A stretch of DNA of 64,000 bases from Planctomycetaceae bacterium (GTDB lineage: Bacteria > Planctomycetota > Planctomycetia > Pirellulales > Pirellulaceae): the NCBI GenBank assembly GCA_002726515.1, contig PBTE01000041.1:1-64000 (forward strand), in the 5' to 3' direction. The position numbers and the translations under genes are program-made. Positions 7,301 to 31,145 of the stretch are shown here, one piece after another. Numbering within the stretch: position 1 is the first letter of the stretch; every line of letters begins with the position of its first letter. Under the pieces are notes generated by a model. The model saw nothing but the letters and a program-made list of their open reading frames with translations, was not told the DNA's origin and made no database searches.

Positions 7301-9467
7301 TATCAGAATAGGCTCCTTTGAGAAATGCTTTTTTGAACGCACCTCGCTGAATTTTCCCGCTCGTCGTTTTATGAAATTGGGAAGTGGACACTGGCACGAC
7401 AAAATCCGGATTCACACCAAATGAACTGGCAACGTGGCTGTGAATCCGGGCCACGACTTTCTTGAGCTTGGGTAGCAGAACCCCTTTTGAAAGATTCGAG
7501 AGAACAATTTCGGGTACGATCTTTGAGTCCGGCACAAAAAAGACAAGGACAGCCTCCGTGCCCGAAGCGTCAGAATGCACACTGGTGGCCGCGACAAAAG
7601 ATGGGACACACCCTTCTAATTCCGCAATGCTGTCTTCGATTTCATAGGCGTAAAAGTTGGCTCCGCGAACGATGATCTGCTCTTTCGCCCTTCCAGTAAG
7701 GGTCAGACGGTCATCGCGAATAAAACCCAAGTCGCCACTATCGAACCACCCGTCTCCCGGAAAACACTCGGCGTTAGCTTGGGGATTCTCATGATAGCCC
7801 TGCATCACACAGGCCCCCCGTATCTGAAGATGCCCCACCTGGTTCTCCCGGAGAACTTTATCACTCGCTCCCTGGGTGATCCTGATTTCCACTCCGGGAC
7901 TGGGAGGGCCAAGGTCGATCACCTGTAGGCTTTCCGATTCCACCGTATGTTCATCGGCGATCACGATGTTCGGAAGTTTTGATTTGAGAATTGTGTGTAC
8001 ACTGACTCCTGGCGTACCGTAATCGTTAGCATATGTCATACAGGTGCACACTTCGGCCATACCGAATGCGGGCTGCATGACTTCTGCTTCTAATCCGCTG
8101 AGACGCAAAAAGTCGTCACACACTTCCGCGGTGACCTGTTCTCCGGCATTCATCAGTTTCTTTACACAACTCAGGTCCCACTGAGGGGGCATTCCACCAC
8201 TTTCCGCTGCGAGCTTCTTGACGGCACTGACCAGCAGTTTAAATCCAAAATTAGGGCTCCAGGAGTAGTTGATCCGATGTTCCTGCATCAGGTCCAGCCA
8301 ACGAATTGGTTTCGCCAGTATTTCTGCGGTGGTCGCCTGATAAGACTGGCACGCCAGATACACGTCTTTGAGATGAAAAGTCAACATCGGCACCACGTGG
8401 TCAAAGGGGAGCCAATTCAGTGTGCGGTCCTCAGGAGTGTAGCCCACGTCAACCGTGCTGTGTTGAATATGAGCGATGATGGCGGCATGTGTTTCTGGAA
8501 TGCACTTGGGTGTACCTGTGCTGCCAGAAGTTAATTGGTAGAACAGGACGTCGTTTGCCGTGATAGAAGCTTCTTCACCTTCGTTGGACAGGTCCAGTTG
8601 TTCCACATCACAGATTATTGCCTCGGCAGGAAAAAGATCCTGGAGGTCCTGCACGTGGGATGCAGATGTCAGAACATGCCTGGCTCCCAAAAGCTTCCAG
8701 ACACCCAGTAACTTTTGAAAGACCGGATTGTCGGCCTCGTATCGGTTCGGAATCGCAATCGTCACGGGAATGATGCCACCCAGGGCACAACCCCAGAGGA
8801 CGTGAAAGTGTTCTCGTCGGTCAGCGATTTGAAGAGGCAGTGGATCCCCTTTTTTCAGTCCTATTTTTTGCAAACCATGCAGGGATTTTCGCGCGGCGTC
8901 GATCAGTTCGGCATAGGATTCGAAAGACTGTTCCCCTTCCTCCAGATAAGTGATACCCCGTTTGCCGGTGGCGGCGGTCTTCAATGCTTCAACAAGTGTC
9001 TTGTGATCAGGTCCTGACCACTGAAGTTGCGGACCCGCCGCGTAAGCTGGCTCGGAGACAACATCGTCGTTGTCCAGTTCCGGTCCGGACCGTTGTGAAT
9101 CGTCCGGTGTGTATCCACTGTACTGGTCCTTATAGAGAACTATTTGCTCCGGTTCGAAATACTCGCGTGCAACAGCGACAGATTTCATCTCGTTGGAGAG
9201 TGCCGATTGACAACGCTGGACAAGGTCCGGGTTGACAAAAGGATAGTCCGCAAGCAAGTCGAAATCAGGCACCCCTTCGCTGGTAACGGGAATGTGTTTG
9301 ACCAGCATCAGATCGGCGTTAGAATTGGCGCTCAAACTATTTAACTTCAATGCTTCACTCGTTGATTTTGGTACCACATAAGCACATTGGCGCTGCGGAT
9401 CAAATGCATACTCGACAATATCCTGGGCACACTCGTCGAACATTTTCTGGAGTTTGTCTGTAGCCAT
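4335..9467 (-). CDS. Megaenzyme: acyl-AMP ligase - ketoreductase - ACP - thioesterase
   Basis: The protein has 1710 residues. Residues 1-125 resemble a detached C-terminal end of an adenylation domain (IPVTSEGVPD). Residues 150-720 are an adenylate-forming ligase: LTSGSTGTPK at 312-321, FGMAEV near 468, GWFDSGDLGF near 573 and the A10 lysine in TTSGKIQR (K705). Residues 730-1200 are a PKS ketoreductase with its structural half first, then VTGGLGAIG at 962-970 and the Tyr at 1112; the usual Asn four residues later is Cys. An ACP has FFELGGDSL with Ser1302. A thioesterase occupies 1360-1710, with SYSQG at 1444-1448 (Ser1446) and DPFFPG. There is no KS, AT or condensation domain. It would activate an acyl or keto acid, reduce it on the ACP and release it by the TE. 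The gene has its own ATG and Shine-Dalgarno (AGGGA) and lies 680 bp beyond the main operon. Substrate unknown. Confidence 0.9.
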   Translation of the reverse strand: MATDKLQKMFDECAQDIVEYAFDPQRQCAYVVPKSTSEALKLNSLSANSNADLMLVKHIPVTSEGVPDFDLLADYPFVNPDLVQRCQSALSNEMKSVAVAREYFEPEQIVLYKDQYSGYTPDDSQRSGPELDNDDVVSEPAYAAGPQLQWSGPDHKTLVEALKTAATGKRGITYLEEGEQSFESYAELIDAARKSLHGLQKIGLKKGDPLPLQIADRREHFHVLWGCALGGIIPVTIAIPNRYEADNPVFQKLLGVWKLLGARHVLTSASHVQDLQDLFPAEAIICDVEQLDLSNEGEEASITANDVLFYQLTSGSTGTPKCIPETHAAIIAHIQHSTVDVGYTPEDRTLNWLPFDHVVPMLTFHLKDVYLACQSYQATTAEILAKPIRWLDLMQEHRINYSWSPNFGFKLLVSAVKKLAAESGGMPPQWDLSCVKKLMNAGEQVTAEVCDDFLRLSGLEAEVMQPAFGMAEVCTCMTYANDYGTPGVSVHTILKSKLPNIVIADEHTVESESLQVIDLGPPSPGVEIRITQGASDKVLRENQVGHLQIRGACVMQGYHENPQANAECFPGDGWFDSGDLGFIRDDRLTLTGRAKEQIIVRGANFYAYEIEDSIAELEGCVPSFVAATSVHSDASGTEAVLVFFVPDSKIVPEIVLSNLSKGVLLPKLKKVVARIHSHVASSFGVNPDFVVPVSTSQFHKTTSGKIQRGAFKKAFLKGAYSDICDTLQQSLQQQGVCTPDWYGRVVWQRRDAVNVHKELEPCDTVVFQQSGCEIAKQLGTKNVFSDWTADTWQRCRELVESDQDRVWRIVFAWPCSATATENLYEGLIQLGQLLDGVQAEVELYVLTAGACLVDSADRVDPEYLAQTGCLLGITKALNAELAYVKKVVQMDVDSQLLADPSAVAETLQTEFRCHHADQEVAIRRGERHVKRYESIGKILASEVADSVEGGARYFSRGGVYIVTGGLGAIGMEVVKLILEVEDTSVLILGRSGDEDERLRVLGWKAEGGGSRVSYAQVDLGTDRRKLEQQVAGFLRHSGKPLLGVVHLAGHYSRQRVSELDSQTFADATRTKVQGSIDLHHVLKKFSSSEHKPTFLHFGSVASFFAGQGLAAYSGCCAFQEVFSEFQQSDGVDSRIYVWSIWENTGIGGRDKTLGFAPWVCPIDKNQGIFILKALLDFTQQRSICVGINLHHPELARFGVDIADLGLHSLCVFFTPEQCIDVATLENASLRPNFICIPEVPFTAQGSIDKETLTSSSIKALTAVEQAGPQNETEEKLFEIWSEVLSTQNLGRGDNFFELGGDSLSWMEMVMLANKAFDLKMNAMQIMQHGAIVELAEHVRGLALSSVNEASGANASDAEKILVVLKKGSEPSQPPVFLFPTVAGTTSCYNEMLSQVDAVRPMIGVLDPYLVGDRHTRSLDFESWMEIYANAVQSRQPRGPYTLMSYSQGSTWLWGTAEHLIRRGEVVEKCILLDPFFPGWNGCRDGFDWMVTWTNAVLKFLPKSLLRMVTPWAYGRMIGLGLPMNTEREREVSIAKTFKKFTGFSENLWLYLIFMELDTGIRVLEDYSELKRYPKDQYEDRVDFICRKCAEKLDNKLDIQYLQDVLYVQSYAFLRASMYSPQVLPPSTSVTVIAPERRGLSLSRETKLDRYVSPGQLQEIDVAVEKFEMKRHVTGRLKGFFLLLELHFRCMHDQQFIINCVDELRKSGIAR

Positions 9468-10148: not shown

Positions 10149-10913
10149 CTAAATGTGTACCGCGGCACCACCATCAACAATCAAGGTTTCTCCCTGCACC
10201 ATGTCACTCAACGGACTAGCCAGGAACAGGCACGCGTTCGCCACGTCGTCGGCCATGAGCATCCGATCACCCATCATGGTCTTTTCGCGCCGACGCTCAA
10301 ACATGACGTCCGAGTCGGGTATCATGCGGGTCGAATCGGTTTCGACCAGACCTGCTTTCACCACGTTTACATTGACTCCCCGGTCACCGACTTCAAGCGT
10401 CAGATGTCGTGCCAGACTTTCCAAGGCCGCCTTGGAACCACCAATCAGTCCATACCAGGGAAGCGCCATTTCCGCTCCGTGGCTGGAAATAGCAATCACT
10501 TTACCACGACCCGTGCTCTGCTCTAACAAAGGAATCGACCGTTGAACCAGAAGCACCAAGGCCAAAGCATTGATGTTCATCGCGTTGTGGAAGTGTCGTG
10601 GATTGGCTGACAACAATGGTCGAAATCCGCCCGTCGCTGCATTGCTGATGAGCACATCCAGTTGCCCAATGTTGTCTTGTACAAAATCCATCATACTTGC
10701 CACATCATCTTCCTCGCTGACATCCGCTTTGATGACGTAAGCACGTCTCCCCCGTGCTTCAATCTGTTCAGCAACTTCTACTGCGGCAGATTTTGATGAA
10801 ACGTAATTGATGATGATATCGGCCCCAGCTTCAGCGAAACGCATGGCACACGCTCTACCGATTCCGCGCGATCCTCCAGTGATCAGTGCAACTCGATCTG
10901 TTAAATCAATCAT
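10149..10913 (-). CDS. Short-chain dehydrogenase, FabL-type enoyl-ACP reductase
   Basis: The 254-residue SDR has ITGGSRGIG at 11-19. Its overall layout matches FabL (the NADPH enoyl-ACP reductase of Bacillus): NAATGGFRPLL after beta-4, MNINALAL, SSHGAEM, Y154 followed six residues later by K161 (YGLIGGSK), and a SDMVQGETLIVDGG C-terminus. A Tyr-x6-Lys spacing marks enoyl reductases; ketoreductases have Tyr-x3-Lys. The synthase has KR and DH but no ER domain, so this protein plausibly supplies enoyl reduction in trans. It is the last gene of the PKS operon, and its start overlaps the PPTase stop by 8 nt. An ordinary SDR role cannot be excluded. Confidence 0.85.
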   Translation of the reverse strand: MIDLTDRVALITGGSRGIGRACAMRFAEAGADIIINYVSSKSAAVEVAEQIEARGRRAYVIKADVSEEDDVASMMDFVQDNIGQLDVLISNAATGGFRPLLSANPRHFHNAMNINALALVLLVQRSIPLLEQSTGRGKVIAISSHGAEMALPWYGLIGGSKAALESLARHLTLEVGDRGVNVNVVKAGLVETDSTRMIPDSDVMFERRREKTMMGDRMLMADDVANACLFLASPLSDMVQGETLIVDGGAAVHI

Positions 10914-11625
10914 GGGTGACTCCTGTGATGGGTAGAGCGTTGGACGGAATACTCAGAGTTGCAGTAACTGCGACGTGACCATCGACCTCCCACGTCTTGA
11001 GTCTCAACTCATCCTTCCACACGTTGTCATAGTATCGGCACGTCCATGGGCCTGTGTTCCAAGAAACTTCAACCTGACGAGGAGCAAACGATTCACCACG
11101 GTTACAAGCTTTGTAGATGGCTTCCTTAGCTGCCCAAAGGCGGCAAACCTCCTTGGTTCTCTGCTCCTCTCCATCTGAAATCTGATCGATTCGCTCCCGT
11201 TCCGAATCCGTAAACCAGTTTGTAAGAAAGCTCGCTGGCAACGGAGCCAGATGGCACAAATCAACTCCCACCTTCGTTTCAGCTGAAGTACTCAAGGCTA
11301 CCAGGAAATTTGTGTCTGAATGCGTAATAGAAAGTGTGTAAGGCAATTCGCGCTGTTTGAGGCAGATTTTGGGCCGGGTCGGACGAAACTGCTCGTCCAT
11401 GGAACGAATGCTGAAGCACCGTAGACCTTCCACAAACTCCGGGTGATTCTCCCGAATCAGTTGTTTGCTCACCCAGCGGCCCGCTAACCAGGCCCGTCTG
11501 CGGCCACGGTGCGAAAATCGCCCCAACTCGATCCGTTCCCAATAGCTCAACCAGTCTAAATTGTCCGGAACCTCCCACGAGTCAGAAAACCTGCCGCAGC
11601 GAAGATGTATGGGTGCATGAACCAT
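10906..11625 (-). CDS. 4'-phosphopantetheinyl transferase (Sfp/EntD superfamily)
   Basis: The 239-residue protein has the two diagnostic motifs: KVGVDLCHL, with the Mg-binding Asp, and RLWAAKEAIYKA, with the Glu/Lys of the W-x-x-K-E-A signature. It would transfer the phosphopantetheine arm from CoA to the Ser of the carrier proteins. The targets are very likely the five ACPs encoded three genes upstream and the ACP of the 1710-residue protein. The ATG lies 6 nt after the synthase stop, and the 3' end overlaps the enoyl reductase gene. A dedicated PPTase is normal for PUFA-type synthases. Confidence 0.92.
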   Translation of the reverse strand: MVHAPIHLRCGRFSDSWEVPDNLDWLSYWERIELGRFSHRGRRRAWLAGRWVSKQLIRENHPEFVEGLRCFSIRSMDEQFRPTRPKICLKQRELPYTLSITHSDTNFLVALSTSAETKVGVDLCHLAPLPASFLTNWFTDSERERIDQISDGEEQRTKEVCRLWAAKEAIYKACNRGESFAPRQVEVSWNTGPWTCRYYDNVWKDELRLKTWEVDGHVAVTATLSIPSNALPITGVTHD

Positions 11626-11631
11626 CAGACG

Positions 11632-14600
11632 TCATCCTTCACGGGGAATTAAAACGCCGTGGTATCCTTCGACCATCACGATGACCGATCCGTCATCTCC
11701 GTGAATATTGAAATCATACACACTGTGTTGTTCACTCAGTTCTCTGCAACGGACAACCGCTAAAAGTTTTTCTCCCACGCGCGGAGAACGTCCCACGCGC
11801 AACCTTTCAATTGATTTTGGTATTTTGGCAACACCTCGAATTTTCTTGCGGACATGAACCCCACAGGTATAAAAGGCAGCATCGATAGCAGACGCGGGAA
11901 TGATCCACTGGTCGCCTTGTCTGCATCCGGCCAAATCTTGAGTATCCAGGGATTCAATTACACCCCAGCCACGATCGCCCGCGGTAACAACTTCTTTCAG
12001 GGCACGAAATACTTCGCCATGATATAACACCACGCCATCCGGATAGTTAAATTCCTTGAGGGGTTCGGGTGCCAGAGGTGGTTGTTCAGCAACAGGTGCA
12101 GCGGGTTCGTCCGCCAATTCAATCCTTGCTTTCATGTAGGGCCGGTCAGGATGTACCAGTTTGCCAGCCCGGCTGTAAAAGTCGCTCGTAAGTAAGCAGG
12201 ACACTCCGTTCGGACCGGCTTCCAAATGGACTTTCGCCTGGGAGAGCCTGTCGGTGTGAAATCGCATCGGTTCCAGAAGTTGTACATCGCAAATCGCCGC
12301 GACAAAACGGGAACCTTCTTGGACAGCCAGAGTTGCCTGAGCCACACTCGACATACTGATGACAGCCGGCAGAATAGGCCGTTTTTTGAACAGATGCTGG
12401 GTTAGGAACGGTTCCGACATCGGGTCAAAATTGACAGCGGTGACAGCGCCACCGGCCTCATCCACAGCAAGTATTTCGTCCACAAGCGGAAAATGTTTAA
12501 TACACGGTCGGGTCGCCACCGCAACCGCCGTCATGCTTTCCATGGCTACGGCCGTGGCAGTCATGTTACTATCCGCCCGGGGGGGTACCGACACTTTCGG
12601 CGAAGAAGCCGCTTTAGAGCCACCTGACACCTTACTGGCATATTCCGGGTTAAGTTTGTGAAACGGCCAGCCCGTAATCAAAATTTCCCTTTCAGGAAGC
12701 CCGGCGCGGATTTCGTTAATCAGGTGATTCGCACCTTCTTTGGTAGGCATATATGTAACGCCACCAACTTCTCGAAGATGCCGAGACTCGGGACGAACAG
12801 CCATGCCCACCTCGTCCCAAGCATGCCAATGAAAACAAGTCGATTTGCAGTCGGTACGTTGTTGACGGAACCAGTCAACTAGTTTGCAAAGCATGTCGTT
12901 GGCCATGCCATAATCGGTTTGTCCGAGACCACCAAACCGACCGCTAACCGAGCCAAACGCCAGGAAGTAACGGAGTGGATCTTCGCGTGTCAGATCCATC
13001 AGGGCTGCCGCGCCATCTACTTTGACAGCAATCGTTCGTTCCACCAGGTCGCGTTTTTTCTTCTCGAAGCGCAAAGAACTTTCAAATCCAGCTCCATGCA
13101 CAATGCCTTCCAGCGGACCGTCCTTCTTGCGGATCTCGTTCAACACCTGGGCCAACGCAATCCGGTCGGTGATGTCAGTGGCGTAGTAGGTGAATTGGAC
13201 ACCCTCTTCGCGAAACATGCGTAAGTTCTTGTCAATCTCAATCGCTTTTTCTACCTTACCCCACGTTGCTGCGGGCACCTCTTTTCGGGCAACGGCCTCT
13301 TTCATCACTTGAGCCCGCAATTGCTTTACCTGTGCGTCGTTCATGTTTCGCCACGAGTCATCAATTTTCGGCACGGGGCTGGAACCAATCAAATGTAATT
13401 TGAGCCCATACCTCTTACCTAACTCCCGTGCCACCACAGCGGTCACACCACGTGCACCTCCGGTCACAACCCATGTACCACCCTTCGGTATATCCTCTTG
13501 TTGAGAAAGTTCGCCGATGGGTTGCACGACCGGTCGCACGACCAGGCGACGATCTTGTTCGTAACCTACTTCTACTTCGTTCAGATCCACCGCGTGTTCC
13601 AAACAAATCGTAGCGGCAATTTCAGCGGGCGACTGGCTTTCTGACACATCCACGATTTTGGCTCTGAACCTGCCTTGTGTCTTCACGCCAAGTTCGATCT
13701 TCATCGACTTGACAAGCCCTGTCAAAGCACCGCTTTCGGCACTGCGTACAGTCCCTGAAAATCCAAAGTCCCCGCCCATGACGGTCGCAGCCATCACGGT
13801 CGCCTGCTCCAGCGCATCCGCCTCCAACAGTAACTGGCACCATCTCTGACAGACAAAATAGGGAAGACTTGCTCCACGTCGCCTACGTTGGATCCAAGTC
13901 GATTCCTCCGTACTCGTCGTGGCATTGTCATCGTAAGGTGTCAACAGAAAAAGATGCAGCACGAGACTGTCCTGAAACATCTGTTCTAGATGGGAAAGAA
14001 CTTCGTCGATGTCATCGGACACGGCCAGAATGTGTGCAGCAGTGCCACTTGATTGCAGACGTTGTTGGAGTGCCCGGGAGACGCTATTGTCACCCACAAT
14101 GATGGCCGAGCCATTCAGCGCCGTCTGATTCGAATCAGGCTCACTCGTCTCGACAGTCCGCATCACAAAACGAAAACAGACATCTCCGTTCCGCGAAGCC
14201 GGCCCAACTCCATAATCTTGCAATGCCGTCTGCGCTGCTTCACCTTTCAAAATTGAGCGGAGCTTTCCATTATTCGAGGATCGCTGTACATTCTCTATGG
14301 AGGCGGGCAACCTCGTGCCATTTGACTTCGTTAAACTCGCCGGAACCGCCGTCAACAATTCGTTAACATTCAAAACACGGTATTCATCGTTGTCGCACTC
14401 TTCAACATCCGGACAAGTGATCCACATTGTCCCCGCCGCGGGTTGCATCACCAGGCTGATTTGATTATCCACGCGCCGGATTGTGTTCATCGTGGGGTGC
14501 GGTGTCTCACGGTCACGACCGATATCGAAGCGGTCCCGCAGCGTCGCTTGTGCGTGCTCCACAGAAACGTCCTGCTGGTTCGCCGTGTCGATCAACTGTT

Positions 14601-17600
14601 GTAGGCGTGTCGCTCTGTGCACAGAATGCTTCGGTGGTGTGTCAACTGGCTGGTGCAATCGGCAATGATTCGCACTAACGTGTCGCTTGACATTGCGCTG
14701 CACCTGTAAATCTTGCCCGTCGTATTCGAGATAAGTAATCTCATCAGAAGGTGCGTGACTGATACATAAAGACCAGCCTCCCATGCCGCAAAAACAACGT
14801 GTAATTTCAATAGCTGTGTCAATGTTGTCTGCCTGGCTAAGGATGCTCTTGACAATCGCATTGTGAGCCCGGCCTTGTTTGATTTCCCGACGACGAGGCA
14901 AGTCCAGGAGCATGGTGCTGGTGACGGCAATTCCCCGGCAATTCATACCATTGATGCCAGCCAGTTCACCCGCCAGACCCAGTACAACATGAGGAATTCC
15001 ATTCGTCGGCTTCCTCACCTGAACGTTCCGTCGGAGGCATTTCGTGACACTCAAAGCCAGGGGCAGGTCTTCGTTTGCGGCGTGGATCAGACCTGCACTC
15101 GAATTCGTCGAAGCCGAGACGGCAAATTGGCTGCAACCCGATCCCTTGTCAGGATAGAGCATGAGGTTGTGTGCAATCACCGATTCATGCGACACACCGG
15201 CACCGTCAGCGATACCGCGCAGCTCTTCTAAATCATCAGGCTGGAAGTAACGGTCTGCCGCTGCTGCGTCTTCCTGAATGTCTGGCAAGCGATGCCACTT
15301 TGATCCCACGAGATTCGCATAGCGCTGCAGAATATTACGAATGACTGGTCCTTCCACCTGACCCATCTGGTAGCCCATGTCATAAGCACTACCCGACAAA
15401 GTGAGAATGTTTTGATGCTCCGATTTCTCCGGCTGTTCTGACAAGTTGTCAGATGACACGTTGAATTCGGCTTCGCGCGCGGATTCCGTGGGCACGATTT
15501 CGCTAGTCGAATCAGAACTCTCGGGCTGTCGGCTGTCCAAAGCGGGTGAGCCAAACATCGCCTCGTCTGCATGTACGGCGCTGAAGGCTCCCGCGCATTC
15601 CAGGCAAGCACGAACGTGAAGCAGCTGGCGGAGTCCGGAACGCTTCGGCTGATCCGATCCGATGATCACCACATCACGATGTCCCAGTAATCGCCGGTGC
15701 AGTTTTGTCAGAATCTGATGTGGCCCGACTTCGACAAAAATATTATTTCCGCCATGGACAAGGCGATCAATCAAATCATCGTAATGGACAGGATCCGTCA
15801 TCTGGGCGACAAGGTTATGCCGAATTTCATCCGGGTCAGCCACGTACTTGTTGGTAACGCTGCTCAGTAGCGGAATCCGTGGAGGGCCTATTTCAATTTG
15901 GGCGAGGGCCTCGGCAAAAGGCAATTTCGTATCCTGCATTAAGGGGGTGTGGAAGGCTCGAGGAGCCGCGAGAACCCGAGTGACAATGTCGACCTTCTTC
16001 AACCGTTCGGCCAATGTTTTGACAAATGATTCCTCGCCACCCACCACGATCTGGTCAGGCGCATTGCGGACGGAGACATGAATCCGACCCTGCAAGTCTG
16101 CCGCATGTCGTTCCAATACCTCAGGACCCGCAGCGACCGAAAGCATGATGCCACGAGCATTCTTACTATTTTCAATCGCGGAGCAACGAGCATGTGTCGC
16201 CAGGGCAGCAGCCTCAAAAGACCAGGCTCCAGCAGCCAACAGTGCGGGAAATTCCCCAAAACTGTGTCCCGATATGCAATCGGGTTGGATGTTCATGGCG
16301 CGTAGTGCGGACAAGACGATCGTGTCGGCGGTAAGCAATGCCAGTTGAGTCTGCCATACATCGACTCCCAACGTTTCTCCACGTTCCCAGGCGACCTGCG
16401 AAAAATTGGCAAACCCTAACTGAGTGAGTCTGGCGTCTAACTTGCTCATGGCATCCGCTGCAGGGGGGAAACATTCCACAAGCGATTTCAGCATACCGAT
16501 GTATTGCGATCCGTGCCCGGGAAAGAGAAAGGCAACACGGGGAGACACATCGGACATTTGATGACAGAAGACGCCCCGTTCCGCCAGAACACCCAGTGAT
16601 TCCGAACGACTGAGAAGCGGGGCTGCCAGGTTTAGTTTCTGATGTAACTCCTCCGGATTCTCAGCCACGACCGCCATGCGCATTCGCTGATCCGGAGAAA
16701 ACCGATCTTGAGCGTCTGCGTGCTGAAATAAAAGTTTGGTATCTTCCACGGACTTGCTGAGTGGGACGACACGATTCACCAAATCTGGCAGACTTTCGGC
16801 CCCCAAACGGACAATGCGGAATTTGCCGAACAAGTCAGGTACTGGCATGTAGGAATCGGAATGAGCGACCCCTTGCACCGCTGAACCAGCCGTGCTTTGA
16901 CGTGCCGGACTCTTCGGAGTTTCCTGCACCGGAACTTTCTCACCACGCTCGACAAGAAAATGATAAGCAACGCGATTTTCGTTCGCCGAACTCACTCCGG
17001 CAATCGCTCGTCCATCCTCTGTGAGGGCGTGCAAAGGTGTACTCGACGCGTTCACGGCAAGACAATCCTTCTCAGTAGCCACTGCTGCGGAAACCTGATC
17101 CAAGAACAGATTGGCCGGTGCGTTCATCTGTTCCAGAGCATCGACAGTCTTCAACAGTCCTGCCATCCCGGCAGTTCCTCCAGTATGACCGATCTGACTG
17201 GTGAGAGTTCCTAAAGTCAGAGGCTGTGGGCGTTGCGATCCGTAACACCCAGCCAGAGCCGCAATTTCCTCCCGGTCCGCTTCAGCAACCCCGTAGGCCG
17301 CAGTTTCTACGACACACACCTCCTGGGATTGAATGGCTGCATGCTGGTGGCTGCGCTGTATCGCCTGTTGCATGGCCTGCTGGAAAGAATCTGAACTGGC
17401 TACACCGAAGCCGCGGATGATCGCACGCACCTTGTCACCATCGCGTTGAGCGTCGGATAACCGCTTCAAAACGACAACTGCCGTGCCCTCACCGGGAAGG
17501 AATCCATTGGCTTGTGCGTCCAGAGGGTTGGGTGGGGAATCACTGGCTAGCACCCCACGGCAAGCCTGTTGTTCGTACGTCATGTACCCCATTGAGCGAT

Positions 17601-19764
17601 GACCGGCGGTACAGATCATCATTTCACAGTCGCCCGCTTGTAAAATATTCATCGCAGCCGTGAGCGCGCTCGACCCCGATGTACTCCCTGAATCGATTGC
17701 TGCACCACCGCCCATCAAATTGTAAGCCTTGGTAATTCGAGACACCAAGGTATTGGTGGTATAACTTCCCGTTTCATCAACTATCGAAGGGTGGTGGTCG
17801 ATCAGTTTCTGCTGGTATTCATCGGCCAGCGAACTAGTCAGGTCTTCCTTCACACCCACATTTCGCAAAGCGTTGATTAAACGTTCTTTAAATTCGGGCA
17901 GACGAAGCCCCATCTGTAACGACTCGTGATATTCGCCGCTGGACATGGCACCAACGCAAACGCCCGTTCGCTTACGATTGAATTCTCTATCATGGAATCC
18001 AGCCATCCGCATTGCTTGTTCTACTGCATCCAACATCATGAATTGCAGTGGGTCGGCCGTCGCAATCTGTTTGGGCGGCACACGGTGTGTTTTCCAGTCA
18101 TATTCGAAGTCAGTCACAAATCCACCCTGAATCGACAAGGTGTTTCGCAAATGTTCCGAATGGCGACGCGCCACCTCGTGATCCCATCTTTCCACCGGAA
18201 GCTGAGATTTGCCATCCGTTCCTGATCGAAGCATTTCCCAAAACGCTTCCACGGTTCGAGCACCCGGCAAAACGGCCCCCACACCGAGAATTGCTATTGG
18301 TTCACAAGGGGTGCTTTTTGTAGCCGGCAAGTTCGAAGACAAAGAAGAAAGGGCCGACCCGTCGTCCAGCACGATGTGTACATTCAAGCCCCCTATGCCA
18401 ATGGAATTCACTGCCGCCCGCCGAGGCTGCCCGTCGGCCGGCGTCGGCCAGGGTGTCGGCTCGAGAGGTACTACGAAGGGTGAATTTTTCCAGTCGATTT
18501 TTGGGTTCAACCGCTTGACATTCGGCTGAGGTGGAATCATTCCATTCTTCATACTCAAAATCGTTTTCAACAAACCAGCCATGCCGGCTGTCTCGATCGT
18601 ATGACCCACATTACCTTTCACACTACCGATGGGAATTTTTGTTCCCGGGGGAAGTTTGCCTTCCAGTGTATCGGCAAGGGATTGCAATTCCGTCTGATCG
18701 CCGACCTGGGTCGACGTGGCGTGAGCTTCGATGTACTGAAGTTGGCTGGGATCCAAATCATTTCCGTATGCCCGCTGGATGGCTTCAATTTGTCCTTCTT
18801 TTCGTGGGGCCCACAAACTCTTTCCTTTGCCATCCGTTGAGAGCCCAATCCCTCGAATAAGTGCGTGAATCTGATCGCCGTCAGCCAAGGCGCGATCCAA
18901 AGTCTTGATCAAGAGCGTGACATATCCCTCACCATTGACAAGCCCGTCGGCGTCTTCGTCAAACGGGCGGGTGCCTGTCCCACTAAGGGACTGTGCACGC
19001 GAGAAGAGAACCAGACTGTCGAATTTGCAATACGACGCACCGCCCACAATCGCCATATCAATTTGTCCCAGTTGCAGAGCTCGCGCACCCATCGCCAGCG
19101 AGGCAAGTGACGACGCACAGGCTGCATTCACCACCATGCTGGGACCATCCAACCGCAACATCTTGGTAATCAGTGCAGCACCCCGATGGGGACTCACATT
19201 AAGATCTTTTCTGGAAAGCGGCTCGGCCCGAGATTCCCTGACTTCGCGAACAACCTCTCGAATCACATCACTCGTACGGCCACTCGTGAGCTGATCGATG
19301 TTGTCGATTTCCCGTAAATATTCGGCTACTTGTTCAATCTGGCTGGCAAAGCATATCTCACCCCCCAGTTCGCTGGCCTTCACGTGCCCGATGTAGACAC
19401 CAACTCTTTCACGCAGCGACATGTCGAAAGGATCGAAGGCGGCATGGCGGCAAGCATCGGCCGCCACATCGCAAATTGTCAAATGGGCAACATCTGAAGT
19501 TGCTAGGTCCTCGGGAGTGAGAGGACAGCGACTGGGATCTATGGGCTGATAGTCCATCAGACAAGCAATGGAGGCATAGGATTTACAAAGCACTCCCTTA
19601 TTCGGATCGAAATAGAGCTGCCGATTGAACCTCTCAGCTGGTATTTCTGCCTCCGTACAACGCCCCTGCAGAAGCAATTCCCAATACTCATCCAAATCGT
19701 TTGCACCAGGCATGCGGCACGCCATGCCCACAACTGCCAACGGGACATTATTGAATTTCGCCAT
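11632..19764 (-). CDS. PUFA-type iterative PKS: KS - KS/CLF - AT - C45 Ntn-hydrolase - KR - DH
   Basis: The protein has 2710 residues. KS1 (1-470) has NAACASS with Cys216, EAHATST His348 and GNVGH His388, so it is catalytically complete. KS2 (490-940) has Ser694 at the Cys position and ETAAYG with Ala822 in place of His, so it is a chain-length-factor-like partner. AT (1075-1370): GHSFG with Ser1168, and RAFH with His1272, the malonyl type. Residues 1452-1798 are a C45/penicillin acyltransferase-like Ntn domain (GSAYDMGYQMG; GSGCSQ with Cys1544; AANEDLP). KR (1840-2370): VTGGARGVT, Ser2272, Tyr2285 and Asn2289. DH (2420-2710): His2457 and Asp2628. There is no ACP and no ER domain; both are on neighbouring genes. 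A Ser/Glu-rich linker precedes C45 and an Ala/Val-rich linker precedes DH. ATG start, 3 nt after the ligase stop. Domain calls are strong; product unknown. Confidence 0.93.
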   Translation of the reverse strand: MAKFNNVPLAVVGMACRMPGANDLDEYWELLLQGRCTEAEIPAERFNRQLYFDPNKGVLCKSYASIACLMDYQPIDPSRCPLTPEDLATSDVAHLTICDVAADACRHAAFDPFDMSLRERVGVYIGHVKASELGGEICFASQIEQVAEYLREIDNIDQLTSGRTSDVIREVVREVRESRAEPLSRKDLNVSPHRGAALITKMLRLDGPSMVVNAACASSLASLAMGARALQLGQIDMAIVGGASYCKFDSLVLFSRAQSLSGTGTRPFDEDADGLVNGEGYVTLLIKTLDRALADGDQIHALIRGIGLSTDGKGKSLWAPRKEGQIEAIQRAYGNDLDPSQLQYIEAHATSTQVGDQTELQSLADTLEGKLPPGTKIPIGSVKGNVGHTIETAGMAGLLKTILSMKNGMIPPQPNVKRLNPKIDWKNSPFVVPLEPTPWPTPADGQPRRAAVNSIGIGGLNVHIVLDDGSALSSLSSNLPATKSTPCEPIAILGVGAVLPGARTVEAFWEMLRSGTDGKSQLPVERWDHEVARRHSEHLRNTLSIQGGFVTDFEYDWKTHRVPPKQIATADPLQFMMLDAVEQAMRMAGFHDREFNRKRTGVCVGAMSSGEYHESLQMGLRLPEFKERLINALRNVGVKEDLTSSLADEYQQKLIDHHPSIVDETGSYTTNTLVSRITKAYNLMGGGAAIDSGSTSGSSALTAAMNILQAGDCEMMICTAGHRSMGYMTYEQQACRGVLASDSPPNPLDAQANGFLPGEGTAVVVLKRLSDAQRDGDKVRAIIRGFGVASSDSFQQAMQQAIQRSHQHAAIQSQEVCVVETAAYGVAEADREEIAALAGCYGSQRPQPLTLGTLTSQIGHTGGTAGMAGLLKTVDALEQMNAPANLFLDQVSAAVATEKDCLAVNASSTPLHALTEDGRAIAGVSSANENRVAYHFLVERGEKVPVQETPKSPARQSTAGSAVQGVAHSDSYMPVPDLFGKFRIVRLGAESLPDLVNRVVPLSKSVEDTKLLFQHADAQDRFSPDQRMRMAVVAENPEELHQKLNLAAPLLSRSESLGVLAERGVFCHQMSDVSPRVAFLFPGHGSQYIGMLKSLVECFPPAADAMSKLDARLTQLGFANFSQVAWERGETLGVDVWQTQLALLTADTIVLSALRAMNIQPDCISGHSFGEFPALLAAGAWSFEAAALATHARCSAIENSKNARGIMLSVAAGPEVLERHAADLQGRIHVSVRNAPDQIVVGGEESFVKTLAERLKKVDIVTRVLAAPRAFHTPLMQDTKLPFAEALAQIEIGPPRIPLLSSVTNKYVADPDEIRHNLVAQMTDPVHYDDLIDRLVHGGNNIFVEVGPHQILTKLHRRLLGHRDVVIIGSDQPKRSGLRQLLHVRACLECAGAFSAVHADEAMFGSPALDSRQPESSDSTSEIVPTESAREAEFNVSSDNLSEQPEKSEHQNILTLSGSAYDMGYQMGQVEGPVIRNILQRYANLVGSKWHRLPDIQEDAAAADRYFQPDDLEELRGIADGAGVSHESVIAHNLMLYPDKGSGCSQFAVSASTNSSAGLIHAANEDLPLALSVTKCLRRNVQVRKPTNGIPHVVLGLAGELAGINGMNCRGIAVTSTMLLDLPRRREIKQGRAHNAIVKSILSQADNIDTAIEITRCFCGMGGWSLCISHAPSDEITYLEYDGQDLQVQRNVKRHVSANHCRLHQPVDTPPKHSVHRATRLQQLIDTANQQDVSVEHAQATLRDRFDIGRDRETPHPTMNTIRRVDNQISLVMQPAAGTMWITCPDVEECDNDEYRVLNVNELLTAVPASLTKSNGTRLPASIENVQRSSNNGKLRSILKGEAAQTALQDYGVGPASRNGDVCFRFVMRTVETSEPDSNQTALNGSAIIVGDNSVSRALQQRLQSSGTAAHILAVSDDIDEVLSHLEQMFQDSLVLHLFLLTPYDDNATTSTEESTWIQRRRRGASLPYFVCQRWCQLLLEADALEQATVMAATVMGGDFGFSGTVRSAESGALTGLVKSMKIELGVKTQGRFRAKIVDVSESQSPAEIAATICLEHAVDLNEVEVGYEQDRRLVVRPVVQPIGELSQQEDIPKGGTWVVTGGARGVTAVVARELGKRYGLKLHLIGSSPVPKIDDSWRNMNDAQVKQLRAQVMKEAVARKEVPAATWGKVEKAIEIDKNLRMFREEGVQFTYYATDITDRIALAQVLNEIRKKDGPLEGIVHGAGFESSLRFEKKKRDLVERTIAVKVDGAAALMDLTREDPLRYFLAFGSVSGRFGGLGQTDYGMANDMLCKLVDWFRQQRTDCKSTCFHWHAWDEVGMAVRPESRHLREVGGVTYMPTKEGANHLINEIRAGLPEREILITGWPFHKLNPEYASKVSGGSKAASSPKVSVPPRADSNMTATAVAMESMTAVAVATRPCIKHFPLVDEILAVDEAGGAVTAVNFDPMSEPFLTQHLFKKRPILPAVISMSSVAQATLAVQEGSRFVAAICDVQLLEPMRFHTDRLSQAKVHLEAGPNGVSCLLTSDFYSRAGKLVHPDRPYMKARIELADEPAAPVAEQPPLAPEPLKEFNYPDGVVLYHGEVFRALKEVVTAGDRGWGVIESLDTQDLAGCRQGDQWIIPASAIDAAFYTCGVHVRKKIRGVAKIPKSIERLRVGRSPRVGEKLLAVVRCRELSEQHSVYDFNIHGDDGSVIVMVEGYHGVLIPREG

Positions 19765-19767
19765 CTC

Positions 19768-21264
19768 TCAGCCTCGAATCAGTTTTTGATTGTGGTTACG
19801 CTGCAACTTCTCGACGAATTCGATTCGGCTGGGAACCTTTGCCGCATCGAGCCGGCTTCTCAAAAATTCTTTCACGTGGCCCTGGTTGGGCATGGAGTTA
19901 TTCCGAGGTACCACATACGCAACGATTGATTCGCCCAGCTGCTCATCACTGTATCCGGCTACGTAGGCCTCGGTGATGTCCGGATAACCTACCAACTCTT
20001 GTTCAACTTCTTCTGGACTCACACTGATTCCCCGAGTGATGATGATGTTTTTTCTGCGTCCGCGAATGTAGAGAAACTGGTCCTCATCCAGGTAACCGCA
20101 ATCTCCAGTCCGCAAATAACCGTCCTGAATCGATTCAGCAGTCAAATCGGACTTTTTGTAGTATCCCAGCATGACATTGGGGCCCTTCACCGTAATTTCA
20201 CCCAACTGCCCTGCAGGAAGCGAACGCCCCAGCTCGTCAATGATCTTGATTTCCACATGCCTTAATGCGCGTCCAGAACTTCCCATCTTGTTCATTTGGT
20301 CTTCAGGCAGCAGGGTTGAACAGCGAGGCGCGGCTTCCGTGAGCCCATAGCCGTAATAGAAGCCAACATTCGGAAACGAGCTGATGACTTGGCGAAATAC
20401 ATCCTGTGCAAATGGTGCAGAAGCGAAAAATATTTTCTTGACGGACGTAAGCTTGCGTCCCACCTCAGAAGCCTTGGAAAGCATATTCATCAAAATGAAC
20501 GGTGTCACATTAGCCACCGTAATCTGTCGCTCCTGCAACAAACGACAGAAGTTGCCCAGTACGAAGATGCCTTTATAGATATGAATGGTCATTCCCGCAG
20601 ACAGGTAAGCCAGGAATTCGGTGGTGTGAGTTCCCACGGCGGTCATCGGCAGGACGATTGCAGCACGATCTTCTTTCGTTAATTGAGCGACTTCGTTGAA
20701 CGACTCGATGTTCGCGAAAATGTTCTGGTGAGATAGCATCACACGTTTTGGATCATTGGCCGTACCCGATGTCGAAATCATCACCGCGACGTGATCATTA
20801 TTATTGGTCGATGGCAAGAGAGAGCGTTCTGCCTGAACATGACTGGGCATCCATTCCAACTTCATATCACGGCCACCGCTGCTAAGCGTGATGACCGCAC
20901 GGACAGCTGGAACACTTCGGGCTGATTGTTTGACGGCTTCAACGTGCTTGGCGTCGGTCACCACGTAGTCTGCGTCGCAGTACGCCAATTCAGACGGCAA
21001 ACGATTCAACGGCAAGGAAACCGGCGTGGGAGCAGGAACTGCGTCTGCCTTCGAAATACCAAAGTACCCCACCGCATACTCAATGGAATTCCCGATAAAC
21101 ATCAAACCGTGCCCACCAATCAAACCGTTGCTTTTCAGCAAATGGCACAGCTTGTCGCTCAGTGCATGAAGATCCCCGTAGGTAATGCAATCCTCTCCGT
21201 GGAGAATCGCCGGAAGAAGCGCACCTTGGGCCGCGCCACGAATCACGATATCGTGGATTTTCAT
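19768..21264 (-). CDS. Acyl-AMP/acyl-CoA ligase feeding the PKS
   Basis: This class I adenylate-forming enzyme has about 498 residues. It has the P-loop MISTSGTANDPK, the A5 motif GYGLTEAAPR, GYLRTGDCGYLDED, the hinge RGRRKNIIITRG, and the A10 lysine near the C-terminus (NHNQKLIRG). It would activate a carboxylic acid as acyl-AMP and pass it to CoA or to an ACP, most likely the starter unit for the neighbouring synthase. Frame-open starts lie at GTG 21297, which overlaps the ACP stop, ATG 21279 and ATG 21264. The last is preferred because family members begin about ten residues before the HDIVIRGAAQ helix and a GGAA lies upstream. Substrate not predictable. Confidence 0.88.
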   Translation of the reverse strand: MKIHDIVIRGAAQGALLPAILHGEDCITYGDLHALSDKLCHLLKSNGLIGGHGLMFIGNSIEYAVGYFGISKADAVPAPTPVSLPLNRLPSELAYCDADYVVTDAKHVEAVKQSARSVPAVRAVITLSSGGRDMKLEWMPSHVQAERSLLPSTNNNDHVAVMISTSGTANDPKRVMLSHQNIFANIESFNEVAQLTKEDRAAIVLPMTAVGTHTTEFLAYLSAGMTIHIYKGIFVLGNFCRLLQERQITVANVTPFILMNMLSKASEVGRKLTSVKKIFFASAPFAQDVFRQVISSFPNVGFYYGYGLTEAAPRCSTLLPEDQMNKMGSSGRALRHVEIKIIDELGRSLPAGQLGEITVKGPNVMLGYYKKSDLTAESIQDGYLRTGDCGYLDEDQFLYIRGRRKNIIITRGISVSPEEVEQELVGYPDITEAYVAGYSDEQLGESIVAYVVPRNNSMPNQGHVKEFLRSRLDAAKVPSRIEFVEKLQRNHNQKLIRG

Positions 21265-21297
21265 GGTGTTTAATTCCATGACCGAGTCACGTAACAC

Positions 21298-23469
21298 TCA
21301 GTTCTTTTCGGCGAGTTTACGTCCAATCAATGAAGCAAACGCACCGGAGTTATTGAGACTCTCTATTTCGAGATCCTCGAGGCTAATCGAGATGGCGTAG
21401 TGTTGTTCGACCGCCGTGATCAAGTCCAGCATTCCGACCGAGTCGAGACCTACATCATCGATCAATCGTGTGTTACTTGTCAGGCTAGCCTTAACGTCGT
21501 TCGCCATACTCCTTTCCGTGATAATTCGACTCAGCGTTTTCAGGATCGATCGTTCATCCGTTGACACTGGTTTTCCATTCCGATGGTCCGTCGAATTTAT
21601 CGAAGACGAAGTTGGTGCTAGCGGCACCGATGCATCCGTTGCAGACTTCGAAGGGGGGGGGGCACCTTGGAGAAAAATCATCACATCGCGTAATGTGGCA
21701 AAATCGTCCAAAGTTAGGTCTTCGGTGGGTGTGACATCGAACTCAAAATACTCTCGCAGTTCACCAAATAACTGGGCTTTCTTGATACTGTCGATTCCCA
21801 GGTCAGCTTCCAAATCGGCATCCAACTCGACAATTTCAGGGGGATACCCGGTTTGCTCAACCACAAAGTTAATCAGGAATTCGTCCAGGTGTTCTGTGGG
21901 AGGCGTCTTCTCTGCGCCTGCTGGACTCGTGATCGTCGTGCCCGGATTCGAAGGCTGCGTCGGCTGGGACGTCGTGGTTTCTTCAAGGTTCTGATCCGTG
22001 AACTGCCCTGATGGGGATTCTTCTTGAGGCGTCTGAGGGTGAATTCCCTGTAGAAAATTCAACACGTCTCGCAACGTTACAAAATCGTCGAGCGTTAATT
22101 CTTCGCTGGGAGTGATGTCGAAGTATTCTCGAAGTTCCCCGAAAAGCTGGGCTTTCTTGATGCTATCGATTCCCAAATCAGCTTCAAGATCTGCGTCCAG
22201 TTCAACAATCTCTGCAGGATAGCCTGTTTGTTCCACGACGAAGTTGACCAGGAACGGTTCCAGCTGTTCTTGCGACGGTGCCCTATCTGTCGCCGCTGTC
22301 GTTGTCGTGGATAGGCTCGAGTTTGATGTGTCCTGTAACTCGGCTGCGGAGTCCACTGCATCACGCCCGCCAGAAGACACCGGCTCAGTTTTCACCTGAT
22401 CCAGAGCAGGTGGTGATGGCGACTCAACCTGAGTCGAACCGGGCGTTTGCTGGTTTTGTTGAGTTCCCTGCAAAAACTCCATGACGTCGCGCAAAGTCAA
22501 AAAGTCATCCAGTGATAAATCTTGGCTGGGAGTTATGTCGAAGTACTCTCGAAGTTCACCAAACAACTGTGCTTTCTTAATACTGTCGATGCCAAGATCG
22601 GCCTCAAGATCCGCGTCCAACTCGACGATCTCCGCGGGATAACCCGTTTGTTCGACGACGAAATTGATCAAAAACGGTTCCAACTGATCAGAAATCGGCT
22701 CCTCAGTATCGGTATTGACCCTCCCAGAACCTTCCGGAACAGAGTTAGACGTGACCGTCGAGACCGGCGACGAAGATGAAAAGGTAGTCACGGTACTCGC
22801 CGACTGGTCATTGGAAACCGGCGGGTTTGCAGCGGGCACGGACGCCTGATTTCCGATGTCGCTACCGTCCGATGCCATACGAAGATAATCGACTACATGC
22901 GCCAGCGTGGAAAAGTCGTCGAGTGTCATATCTTCGGTGGCGGTCATTTCAAAATCGAAGTATTCCCGCAACTCACCAAACAATTGTGCTTTTTTGATAC
23001 TGTCAATGCCGAGGTCCGCTTCCAGGTCGGCATCCAAGTCAACAATTTCTGCGGGATAACCGGTCTGTTCCACCACAAAATTGATTAGAAATGTTTCCAG
23101 TTGTTCAGGTGGGGGTGTAGATTTCTTGGCCCGTGAAGTGCCATTGTTGGAGTGTGCCGCTTGGCTCTCTGCCACTGCGACAGGGATCGCCGGAGAGGGC
23201 TCGTTATCGGACGGAAATGGCGTTGTCGCCGACTCCGTTGTCACTTCGCCCGACGTAATTTCCCGACGAGAGCCAGGCTCCGCAATCGCCGCCAATTCAC
23301 CTGGAATTTGATGCCGGGGCACAGTACCGACTTGCGACATCGCCTTGTCACGCATTTTGTTCTTGCGAACCATCGTTGCGTCAAAATGCACGATACTGGA
23401 AGAATGCGATGCACTCGATTCAGGATCGCCGTTCTTGGACGCAACTCCAGGGTTGTAGGAAGTGGTCAT
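21298..23469 (-). CDS. Acyl-carrier protein array: four tandem PUFA-type ACPs plus a divergent fifth
   Basis: The protein has 723 residues from the ATG, or 730 from a TTG at 23490. Counting from the TTG, ACPs lie at about 129-206, 268-343, 408-483 and 533-609. They are nearly identical, and each carries DLGIDSIKKAQLFGELREYF, the PUFA-synthase signature, with pantetheinylated Ser164, 303, 443 and 568. A fifth, unrelated ACP (645-730) has DVGLDSVGML with Ser684. Linkers are Ser/Thr/Pro/Gln-rich and presumably flexible. In classical PfaA proteins the ACPs are inside the synthase; here they are a free-standing protein. AGAAG lies 4 nt before the ATG at 23469. The stop overlaps the earliest possible start of the ligase. 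Confidence 0.93.
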   Translation of the reverse strand: MTTSYNPGVASKNGDPESSASHSSSIVHFDATMVRKNKMRDKAMSQVGTVPRHQIPGELAAIAEPGSRREITSGEVTTESATTPFPSDNEPSPAIPVAVAESQAAHSNNGTSRAKKSTPPPEQLETFLINFVVEQTGYPAEIVDLDADLEADLGIDSIKKAQLFGELREYFDFEMTATEDMTLDDFSTLAHVVDYLRMASDGSDIGNQASVPAANPPVSNDQSASTVTTFSSSSPVSTVTSNSVPEGSGRVNTDTEEPISDQLEPFLINFVVEQTGYPAEIVELDADLEADLGIDSIKKAQLFGELREYFDITPSQDLSLDDFLTLRDVMEFLQGTQQNQQTPGSTQVESPSPPALDQVKTEPVSSGGRDAVDSAAELQDTSNSSLSTTTTAATDRAPSQEQLEPFLVNFVVEQTGYPAEIVELDADLEADLGIDSIKKAQLFGELREYFDITPSEELTLDDFVTLRDVLNFLQGIHPQTPQEESPSGQFTDQNLEETTTSQPTQPSNPGTTITSPAGAEKTPPTEHLDEFLINFVVEQTGYPPEIVELDADLEADLGIDSIKKAQLFGELREYFEFDVTPTEDLTLDDFATLRDVMIFLQGAPPPSKSATDASVPLAPTSSSINSTDHRNGKPVSTDERSILKTLSRIITERSMANDVKASLTSNTRLIDDVGLDSVGMLDLITAVEQHYAISISLEDLEIESLNNSGAFASLIGRKLAEKN
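21664..23106 (-). repeat. Four-fold imperfect coding repeat (ACP units)
   Basis: Units of about 230 bp at 22873-23106, 22462-22689, 22042-22269 and 21664-21894 encode the four similar ACPs and are also close at DNA level. Each contains recognisable versions of the stretch coding for VVEQTGYPAEIVELDADLEA (split by linkers of 100-190 bp that are not conserved). The pattern points to tandem duplication with later homogenisation. Confidence 0.85.
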
Positions 23470-23508
23470 AATCTTCTGCTCACTTGTCAATATTGCGACT
23501 TTGTTTCT

Positions 23509-24981
23509 CTAGGGACTCGGCTGTGTCACATGTCCCAGTACCCTCGCCAGTTGTGCAGGTGGTGGCGTGTTACCTTGGATCAACGCTTGCGAAGTCCTCA
23601 AAGATTCCCCAACAGAAATTTCGTTTCGCAATAGTCGCGAAAAAGTGTCGGTGTTGAGATAAAAGTAGTGTTCAGAGCGAGTCGATAGGCCTGGGCGAGC
23701 CGACACAGGGCGCAGTTCGCTGTCCAGCATGAGTTCCCACTGGCCCCCGCCTGGTCCAGTCACCTGGAGACCAACCGGCTGTCCCCGGTCCCAGTCCAAA
23801 TCTGTGTTCAATAGTTGTTCGAGATGCTGTTGGATATCCAACTCCAACTGAATGGGAGCAGGGCGAGGCCAACCAAAATTGGATTCGATCGCATATTTAC
23901 AGAGATGAACCAACATCTCGCAATTCACTTCGGGAGGCGGAAGATGTGGCGCAGCACGACGAGTGTTGGTCAAGTCAAATTCCGGATCATCCTTCCAATA
24001 CGACTCGTAAATCTTCATCTGATCGCGGAAATACTCCACAAACTCGTCTTGGTTCAACGACCAGGAGGTACTCTGAGTCTGGTCCTCACTCTGTGAAACA
24101 TCTCCATAGGTCAGGAATCCCTGAACCATCGCATCACGCATGACGTTCGCGGTGACGGGCTTGTCAGGTGCCAAATGGAAAATTTGGCCGTGGTGTTCAG
24201 GGTGCGCGATGATGTGAGTCATCACTTCTGATATCCAATCCACGGGAATGAGATTTTTGCGTTCGTGACCCTGAATTTGTATCGATTCCTGTAACGGTGC
24301 GGCGAGTGCTACGTCCCGAATAATGTGCTTGAACATCGTGTGCACAAGCTTCAGAGGGACGTAAAAACCATGAAATGTCGGTGTATATCCAGTGCGAGAA
24401 TCGCCAATGATGATCGCGGCCCGGTAAATCGTGGGGGGATCAATGTGGCGAGCGGCTCGTATCAGTTGTTCTCCTTCAAACTTGCTTCGCTCGTAATCCG
24501 TGTTGAGCTCCTGGCCCTCGTCGAGTTCCCCTTCGTAAATCAGTCCCTCGCGTTTCCCACAGACATACGCAGTTGAGACGTGGTGGAACTGCCGGATTCC
24601 ATTACGTTTACAAAAAGCCAATGCATTCTCCGTGCCACCCACATTGGTACGCCACGGATCCTCGTGAGGCCGCTCTCCATAGTAAGTCACGCTGGCCGCA
24701 TTCTGGACGAGGGACGTGCAATTGGCTGCTACCCAACGCAATTGTTCGTCCGACAAGTCAAATCTGTCGTTCGAGAGATTTCCCTCGAGAATGACAGGGC
24801 GCGGAAGTGCAAAACCCGCTAGTTTCTCCCAGCGAGTCATGATCGATTCTACACGTTGGCGGGCGGACTCCAGTTTAGTGGGGCGCACCAAAACCGCGAC
24901 GCGTAGGCCGGCTACCAGGAAATCGTTCAGTAGATACGACCCGAGTAGACCCGTAGCACCTGTAAGTAAGTGATAAGCCAT
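23509..24981 (-). CDS. Thioester reductase-like protein with a C-terminal SCP2-like domain
   Basis: Residues 1-370 are an extended-SDR thioester reductase (NAD-binding_4 type): LLTGATGLLGSYLL at the N-terminus, AASVTYYGERPHED, VSTAYVCGKR and YERSKFEGE with the Tyr-x3-Lys pair. In NRPS/PKS systems and HglB-type proteins these domains release ACP-bound acyl chains as aldehyde or alcohol. Residues 380-490 look like a sterol-carrier-protein-2 lipid-binding fold (WELMLDSELRPV, YFYLNTDTFSRLLRNE, QGNTPPPAQLARVLG). First gene of the operon. The open frame reaches a TTG at 24987, but ATG 24981 is the better start, giving 490 residues. Reductive release is inference from family; the SCP2-like call is moderate. 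Confidence 0.85.
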   Translation of the reverse strand: MAYHLLTGATGLLGSYLLNDFLVAGLRVAVLVRPTKLESARQRVESIMTRWEKLAGFALPRPVILEGNLSNDRFDLSDEQLRWVAANCTSLVQNAASVTYYGERPHEDPWRTNVGGTENALAFCKRNGIRQFHHVSTAYVCGKREGLIYEGELDEGQELNTDYERSKFEGEQLIRAARHIDPPTIYRAAIIIGDSRTGYTPTFHGFYVPLKLVHTMFKHIIRDVALAAPLQESIQIQGHERKNLIPVDWISEVMTHIIAHPEHHGQIFHLAPDKPVTANVMRDAMVQGFLTYGDVSQSEDQTQSTSWSLNQDEFVEYFRDQMKIYESYWKDDPEFDLTNTRRAAPHLPPPEVNCEMLVHLCKYAIESNFGWPRPAPIQLELDIQQHLEQLLNTDLDWDRGQPVGLQVTGPGGGQWELMLDSELRPVSARPGLSTRSEHYFYLNTDTFSRLLRNEISVGESLRTSQALIQGNTPPPAQLARVLGHVTQPSP

Positions 24982-25014
24982 CTTCAATTGTCACGCATCT
25001 TCAATGAGCGGGAG

Positions 25015-26175: not shown

Positions 26176-26180
26176 GGTTG

Positions 26181-30007: not shown

Positions 30008-30033
30008 GATAGATTTCTTCTCGCCGCACTTAG

Positions 30034-31134: not shown

Positions 31135-31145
31135 GGTGCCCTTTT

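Follow-up and report, generated by a model that had tools for sequence, protein, structure and literature searches.

Why should an iterative polyketide synthase (PKS) carry, between its acyltransferase (AT) and ketoreductase (KR) domains, a domain of the family that activates itself by autoproteolysis? The question is raised by a 2710-residue protein encoded at 11632..19764 in the 64,000-nucleotide stretch analyzed here (positions 1 to 64,000 of contig PBTE01000041.1 from a Planctomycetaceae bacterium, hereafter the window), whose open frame and Pfam domains give the order ketosynthase (KS)-chain length factor (CLF)-AT-C45-KR-dehydratase (DH). The gene lies on the minus strand, as do its domains and the neighboring genes between 4335 and 24987 described below. 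A complete C45-type N-terminal nucleophile (Ntn) domain is present between AT and KR, and the reading we favor, with roughly even confidence and on the strength of sequences and models, is that it acts as a working, built-in chain-release domain of a synthase resembling those for polyunsaturated fatty acids (PUFA) and heterocyst glycolipids, probably as a hydrolase that can be replaced by reductive release.

The C45 domain and its predicted self-cleavage

Residues 1457-1780 of the synthase (14425..15396) matched the whole length (1-313 of 313) of the NCBIfam family NF040521, "C45 family autoproteolytic acyltransferase/hydrolase", scoring 135.9 bits when the whole protein was searched and 141.3 bits when a 347-residue stretch was, against a cutoff of 85. 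No C45/AAT family was among the Pfam matches of the entire protein at E ≤ 0.01, and the assignment therefore rests on this match together with a profile match and the predicted fold. A profile made from eight relatives matched the Penicillium isopenicillin N acyltransferase (PcAT, also called IAT; 2x1c) with an E value of 5e-9, while a single-sequence search of the PDB gave only a weak match to NAAA; matches to PPR and solenoid proteins in the profile search were discarded as repeat noise.

The AlphaFold2 model of residues 1441-1800, built with 64 homologues, reached a pLDDT of 89.7 and a pTM of 0.91. Foldseek ranked the precursor and mature forms of PcAT highest (best E value 2e-19), followed by the uncleaved acid ceramidase and NAAA precursors, and the VIA alignment with 2x1c, spanning 318 residues, gave a Z score of 36.9 and an rmsd of 2.5. 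In mature NAAA, acid ceramidase, penicillin acylases and others, the beta chain starts to match the model at residue 104, which is Cys1544 (codon 15133..15135) and lies within the core strand 103-109. Given these structural matches and chain starts, the modeled domain is a proenzyme fold with Cys1544 in the position of the nucleophile and of the predicted new N terminus, dividing a predicted alpha segment (residues 1452-1543, 15136..15411) from a predicted beta segment (residues 1544-1798, 14371..15135). The processing dipeptide Gly1543-Cys1544 is accompanied by Asp1566 of the NED (NxD) motif (15067..15069) and Asn1699 of ANH (14668..14670), which are invariant in alignment A1 and correspond in the profile alignment to the Asp of PcAT QNWD and the Asn of its TNH. 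The alignment with 2x1c stops at chain residue 277, before Arg310 of PcAT; R1764, D1766 and N1767, also invariant in A1, are candidates for its counterpart, and a first guess that it is R1764 could not be established.

A first-pass annotation of the window had pointed to the motifs GSAYDMGYQMG, GSGCSQ and AANEDLP and to the codon of Cys1544, and had read them as the C45 pattern; the motifs are there, arithmetic from the start of the frame confirms the codon, and the family score, the profile match and an Ntn fold close to that of the Penicillium enzyme bear out the assignment. The family score and the fold exclude a chance motif or a frameshift artefact, and so does the presence of the fusion in many other genomes, which excludes an assembly error as well.

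Self-cleavage between Gly1543 and Cys1544 is likely from the model because Cys1544 occupies the starting point of mature Ntn beta chains and comes just after the sole stretch with a pLDDT below 50 (model residues 97-100). IAT is cut between Gly102 and Cys103 and stays an alpha/beta heterodimer (PMC2692852). The first-pass annotation had envisaged the synthase splitting into two proteins, but, by analogy with known C45 enzymes, which keep both pieces as one alpha-beta heterodimer, a cleaved synthase should instead be nicked, with its halves held together by the Ntn fold.

Recurrence in planctomycetes

The search for the fusion covered planctomycete genomes at the phylum level (392) and at the class level (398), and a pattern scan extended it to about 85,000 species. 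Forty C45-bearing synthases could be placed, at least 38 of them planctomycete. The scan gave a close set of 19 loci at E ≤ 1e-57 and then, after a sharp break, stand-alone C45 proteins from 3e-19; all 19 bear a planctomycete label except L047, L062 and L064, and L047 is the same as L033, which is in the window's class. The commonest order in the relatives is KS-CLF-AT-(1 to 4 ACP)-C45-KR(-KR)-DH(-DH), where ACP is acyl carrier protein, and tandem ACPs stand directly before C45 in more than half of the loci. C45 is thus a domain that recurs in planctomycete PKSs, most often right after tandem ACPs; in the window's own sub-group the ACPs are on a separate protein and not inside the PKS. Searches of open full-text papers turned up no account of a PKS with a built-in C45 domain; since they leave out subscription journals, this does not prove novelty.

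Several variants were seen on the way. L127 (3498-14174) has a doubled KS-CLF-KS-CLF-AT-C45-KR-DH arrangement with an intact Cys and a condensation-domain-like protein nearby. L139, the second C45-PKS of the SJ810 genome, consists of an AT-less KS-CLF-C45(Gly)-KR-DH protein (4822-12000) followed by a separate KS-CLF protein (12040-15201). The cyanobacterial L069, L074 and L108 carry C45 on the C-terminal side of proteins of about 870-910 residues, behind about 500 N-terminal residues, and in L105, from a distant bacterium, a stand-alone C45 protein (9710-11179) lies 2.7 kb from a PKS of the KS-CLF-AT-ACP-KR type (13905-20978).

Loss of the nucleophile

The catalytic Cys is conserved in 16 of the 39 synthases whose nucleophile position is visible (L065 starts behind the site). 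Nine others have Gly-Gly in place of Gly-Cys and keep the NED motif, 13 are degenerate, having lost the Cys and most other motifs, and in L136 (6037-13263) the domain is reduced to about its first 100 residues. The KR and KS trees each require two changes that remove the Cys. One produced the 13-member degenerate clade, which contains most of the members of the window's family found; the other produced the Gly clade, which is sister to the window, with support for this grouping of 95/87 in the KR tree and only 85/77 in the KS tree. The window and L127, also from the window's family, retain the Cys.

The rate at which the domain changes follows the state of its nucleophile: the median identity of C45 minus that of KR is -2 points for Cys-intact pairs, -9 for Gly pairs and -24 for degenerate pairs, numbers that are descriptive since the pairs share branches. 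Between the window and its Cys-intact relatives, C45 is 2.6 points under KR. Because C45 keeps pace with KR where the Cys is intact and evolves faster where it is lost, the sequences indicate that selection preserves catalysis and that loss of the Cys is followed by decay of the domain. As judged from the same alignments, the step itself is dispensable, because the catalytic Cys has disappeared from over half of the family.

Stand-alone C45 proteins

The genomes G152, NAT128, HKST-UBA56 and SJ810 encode proteins of about 500 residues in which an ACP-like N-terminal part is followed by a Cys-intact C45 domain (L037:8826-10319, L052:2042-3613, L053:9563-11101 and L060:9506-11074). The ACP-like part has lost its Ser, reading IDGCM in L037 and L052, against IDSIK in the ACPs of the window, and VDGYM in L053, while that of L060 resembles ACP too faintly for BLAST to detect. 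The synthases of G152 and NAT128 have Gly-Gly in their own copy of C45, and one reading of these sequences is that catalysis moved in trans to the stand-alone protein. As a general account of the synthases with a dead C45, such complementation was set aside, and kept as an idea, because no stand-alone copy was found in the Gly-clade genomes G394, G395, G398 and G399, which are mostly drafts. The G152 protein lies about 5 kb from a GH3 gene, with arginine-biosynthesis genes between them, a proximity that is suggestive only.

The synthase and its genomic neighbors

Besides C45, the window synthase comprises a KS with the active-site motif NAACASSL (residues 1-470, 18355..19764; Pfam ketoacyl-synt), a CLF-like second KS with DSGSTSGSS and no Cys (residues 488-960, 16885..18303; Pfam), an AT with GHSFGEF (residues 1079-1385, 15610..16530; PF00698), a KR (residues 2096-2318, 12811..13479; PF08659) and a DH (residues about 2426-2705, 11650..12489), for which the Pfam matches, PKS_DH_N and PS-DH, were both under the cutoff. 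With an active KS, a Cys-less second KS, AT, KR, DH and ACPs in one operon, it belongs to the KS-CLF iterative type I PKSs. It is related to, but not a member of, omega_3_PfaA (TIGR02813; 655.7 against a cutoff of 1010.1), and PKS_plus_SDR (NF045894) was likewise not reached (736.2 against 1740). The ACPs are on the protein at 21298..23490, which has five Pfam PP-binding stretches, four of them with IDSIKKAQ; in many relatives the homologous ACPs are part of the PKS itself and immediately precede C45. Next to the synthase lies an acyl-AMP/CoA ligase (19768..21297; Pfam AMP-binding and AMP-binding_C).

The common neighbors in the relatives are a 4'-phosphopantetheinyl transferase (in the window 10906..11625; Pfam ACPS), a FabG-like short-chain dehydrogenase/reductase (SDR; 10149..10913, with 50-73% identity to the SDR neighbors in most relatives) and, in part of the loci, a thioester-reductase-like protein (TR; 23509..24987; Pfam NAD_binding_4), conserved beside the PKS in the relatives that bear it. 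Of the lost-Cys PKSs for which both flanks can be seen, all but the AT-less paralogue L139 have TR next to them, as do the Cys-intact synthases of the window, L034, L039, L063 and L127. The flanks checked for L035, L036, L048, L056 and L135 contained no TR, and all five of these are Cys-intact. In L033, L035, L036, L048, L056, L057 and L065 the gene right after the SDR encodes a GH3-type acid-amido synthetase; the Cys is seen in six of these seven loci, L065 being the one cut off behind the site, and no GH3 stands beside a lost-Cys PKS. In the open literature searched, nothing relevant on bacterial GH3 together with PKS was found.

In the degenerate-clade loci of the window's family, TR is accompanied by a class III aminotransferase, a Rieske oxygenase and a metallo-beta-lactamase-fold protein. 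The last of these adjoins the degenerate-C45 synthases L040-L045, L128, L131, L132 and L134 and could be a replacement release enzyme. Upstream of the PKS operon of the window, at 25468-32348, glycosyltransferases, a nucleotidyltransferase and an asparagine synthase-like protein are encoded, possibly as a separate polysaccharide locus.

Possible role of the domain

The distribution of TR and GH3 is suggestive of a Penicillium-type nucleophile that accompanies enzymes acting on free acids and is no longer needed where the chain can be released reductively; since there were only two loss events, it is not statistical proof. A role in release is favored because TR adjoins the loci that lost the Cys, the loci lacking TR keep it, and GH3 never stands beside a lost-Cys PKS, and action on ACP because C45 directly follows tandem ACPs in most loci and the stand-alone copies carry a Ser-less ACP-like domain. 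In the mechanism that we propose, C45 would cut the backbone between Gly1543 and Cys1544 after folding, and the resulting KS-CLF-AT-alpha and beta-KR-DH pieces would stay joined through the shared Ntn fold, as in known C45 enzymes. The freed N-terminal Cys1544 would then take the finished acyl chain off the ACP as a thioester, from which water or, less likely, an amine would remove it. The released acid might be re-activated by an adenylating enzyme, which would be the acyl-AMP ligase at 19768..21297 in the window and GH3 in one clade of relatives. Where TR provides reductive release, C45 would be dispensable, and its Cys might in this way have been lost twice. To the fuller picture, in which a self-nicking megasynthase uses its new N-terminal Cys as a new type of cis-acting release domain, hydrolytic or aminolytic, that has been swapped with TR and whose catalytic copy is sometimes supplied in trans as a pseudo-ACP-C45 protein, we give slightly less than an even chance.

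Several points weigh against release as the function. The chief weakness is that in the window the intact C45 coexists with both TR and a separate thioesterase domain, on a FAAL-KR-ACP-thioesterase protein (4335..9467; Pfam) that has no counterpart in the other C45-PKS loci compared. TR and an intact C45 coexist also in L034, L039, L063 and L127, and in all these loci C45 may do another job. Both Cys losses occurred on TR-bearing backgrounds, so that the correlation with TR is not statistically independent. Hydrolysis and acyl transfer cannot be separated by sequence, and AzsT, the nearest characterized C45 enzyme acting on a carrier-bound substrate, cleaves an amide and not a thioester (PMC10445470).

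The first-pass annotation had proposed that the self-cleaved Cys moves the chain from ACP to an amine, which might be an amino acid, a polyamine or an amino lipid. Such aminolytic release would suit the closest fold and profile match, PcAT, which is an acyl-CoA:amine acyltransferase transferring from CoA to 6-aminopenicillanic acid, and N-acyl tyrosines are known planctomycete products, although a link to the biosynthesis of one of these, stieleriacine, was dropped, the 2025 paper on its biosynthesis mentioning no PKS, C45 or Ntn. The proposal is nevertheless without direct support and seems unlikely to us: the GH3 linkage and the alternation with TR fit free-acid release at least as well, and GH3, which adjoins C45-active PKS loci and itself forms amides, would make it redundant. 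No amine-supplying gene is constant beside the intact-Cys loci, the class III aminotransferase standing beside degenerate ones, and NAAA and acid ceramidase, which are related to C45, mainly catalyze hydrolysis. Rather less probable still is a tailoring or editing amidase that takes a protecting N-acyl group off an intermediate carried by ACP or removes chains that have stalled. It would explain why C45 and TR coexist in the five loci named above, and it has a precedent in the in vitro desuccinylation of a carrier-protein-bound intermediate by AzsT (PMC10445470), but no conserved enzyme for loading an N-acylated starter lies beside the loci, and a tailoring role does not predict that absence of TR goes with retention of the Cys.

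Least probable in our estimation is that the Ntn fold mainly spaces AT and ACP from KR, or docks ACP, with catalysis incidental, much as CLF is a dead KS. The position of the domain is kept without the Cys in 22 loci, one more keeping only the first part, and an early "GGxNxxGL" segment survives in decayed copies. A purely structural role is nonetheless unlikely to be the whole story, as judged from the sequences, because C45 decays after Cys loss, evolving faster and being truncated in L136, while catalytic residues and slow evolution coincide in the window and the other intact loci.

Relation to known systems

PcAT (2x1c, 2x1d; MEROPS C45) from Penicillium chrysogenum shares with the window domain the Ntn alpha-beta-beta-alpha fold, the Gly-Cys processing site, the aligned Asp and Asn positions and a plausible thioester donor. 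It differs in having only 18% identity, in being a free 40-kDa proenzyme and not a domain inside a 2710-residue PKS, and in using CoA as the donor where ACP would be expected here. Acid ceramidase and NAAA (5u81, 6dxw) are likewise Cys Ntn proenzymes of the same fold that act on long acyl chains, their precursors scoring Z 30-31, but they are lysosomal amidases with 12-15% identity. AzsT of azaserine biosynthesis and its homologue Tri14 of triacsin biosynthesis are C45 peptidases for carrier-protein substrates that belong to biosynthetic clusters, and an intermediate bound to a carrier protein is the demonstrated substrate of AzsT (PMC10445470); in the published cluster AzsT is, however, a stand-alone gene product that cuts an N-succinyl amide, and no PKS fusion has been described.

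As a synthase, the window protein resembles PfaA of PUFA synthases and the heterocyst-glycolipid-type PKSs in KS, CLF, AT, tandem ACPs, KR and DH, with phosphopantetheinyl transferase and SDR genes nearby and TR in part, and differs from them in the extra C45 and in having its ACPs on a separate protein. PKSs of the hglE type have been predicted in planctomycetes (PMC13190842). A precedent for an unusual built-in domain of release type is myxobacterial Pfa3, a PUFA-type synthase that includes a non-standard acyltransferase-type domain, AGPAT (PMC6731297). That domain is an unrelated O-acyltransferase and does not cleave itself.

Implications

If the favored reading is true, the mature megasynthase would be a nicked protein. 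The release domains of PKSs are few, namely thioesterase, reductase, condensation-type and AGPAT domains, and the list would grow by one with a self-processing Ntn domain as part of the synthase. The family holds its own controls, C45 being present with Cys, with Gly or in a decayed form, and beside different release genes, and the need for a chain-release domain would thereby be directly testable in culturable planctomycetes.

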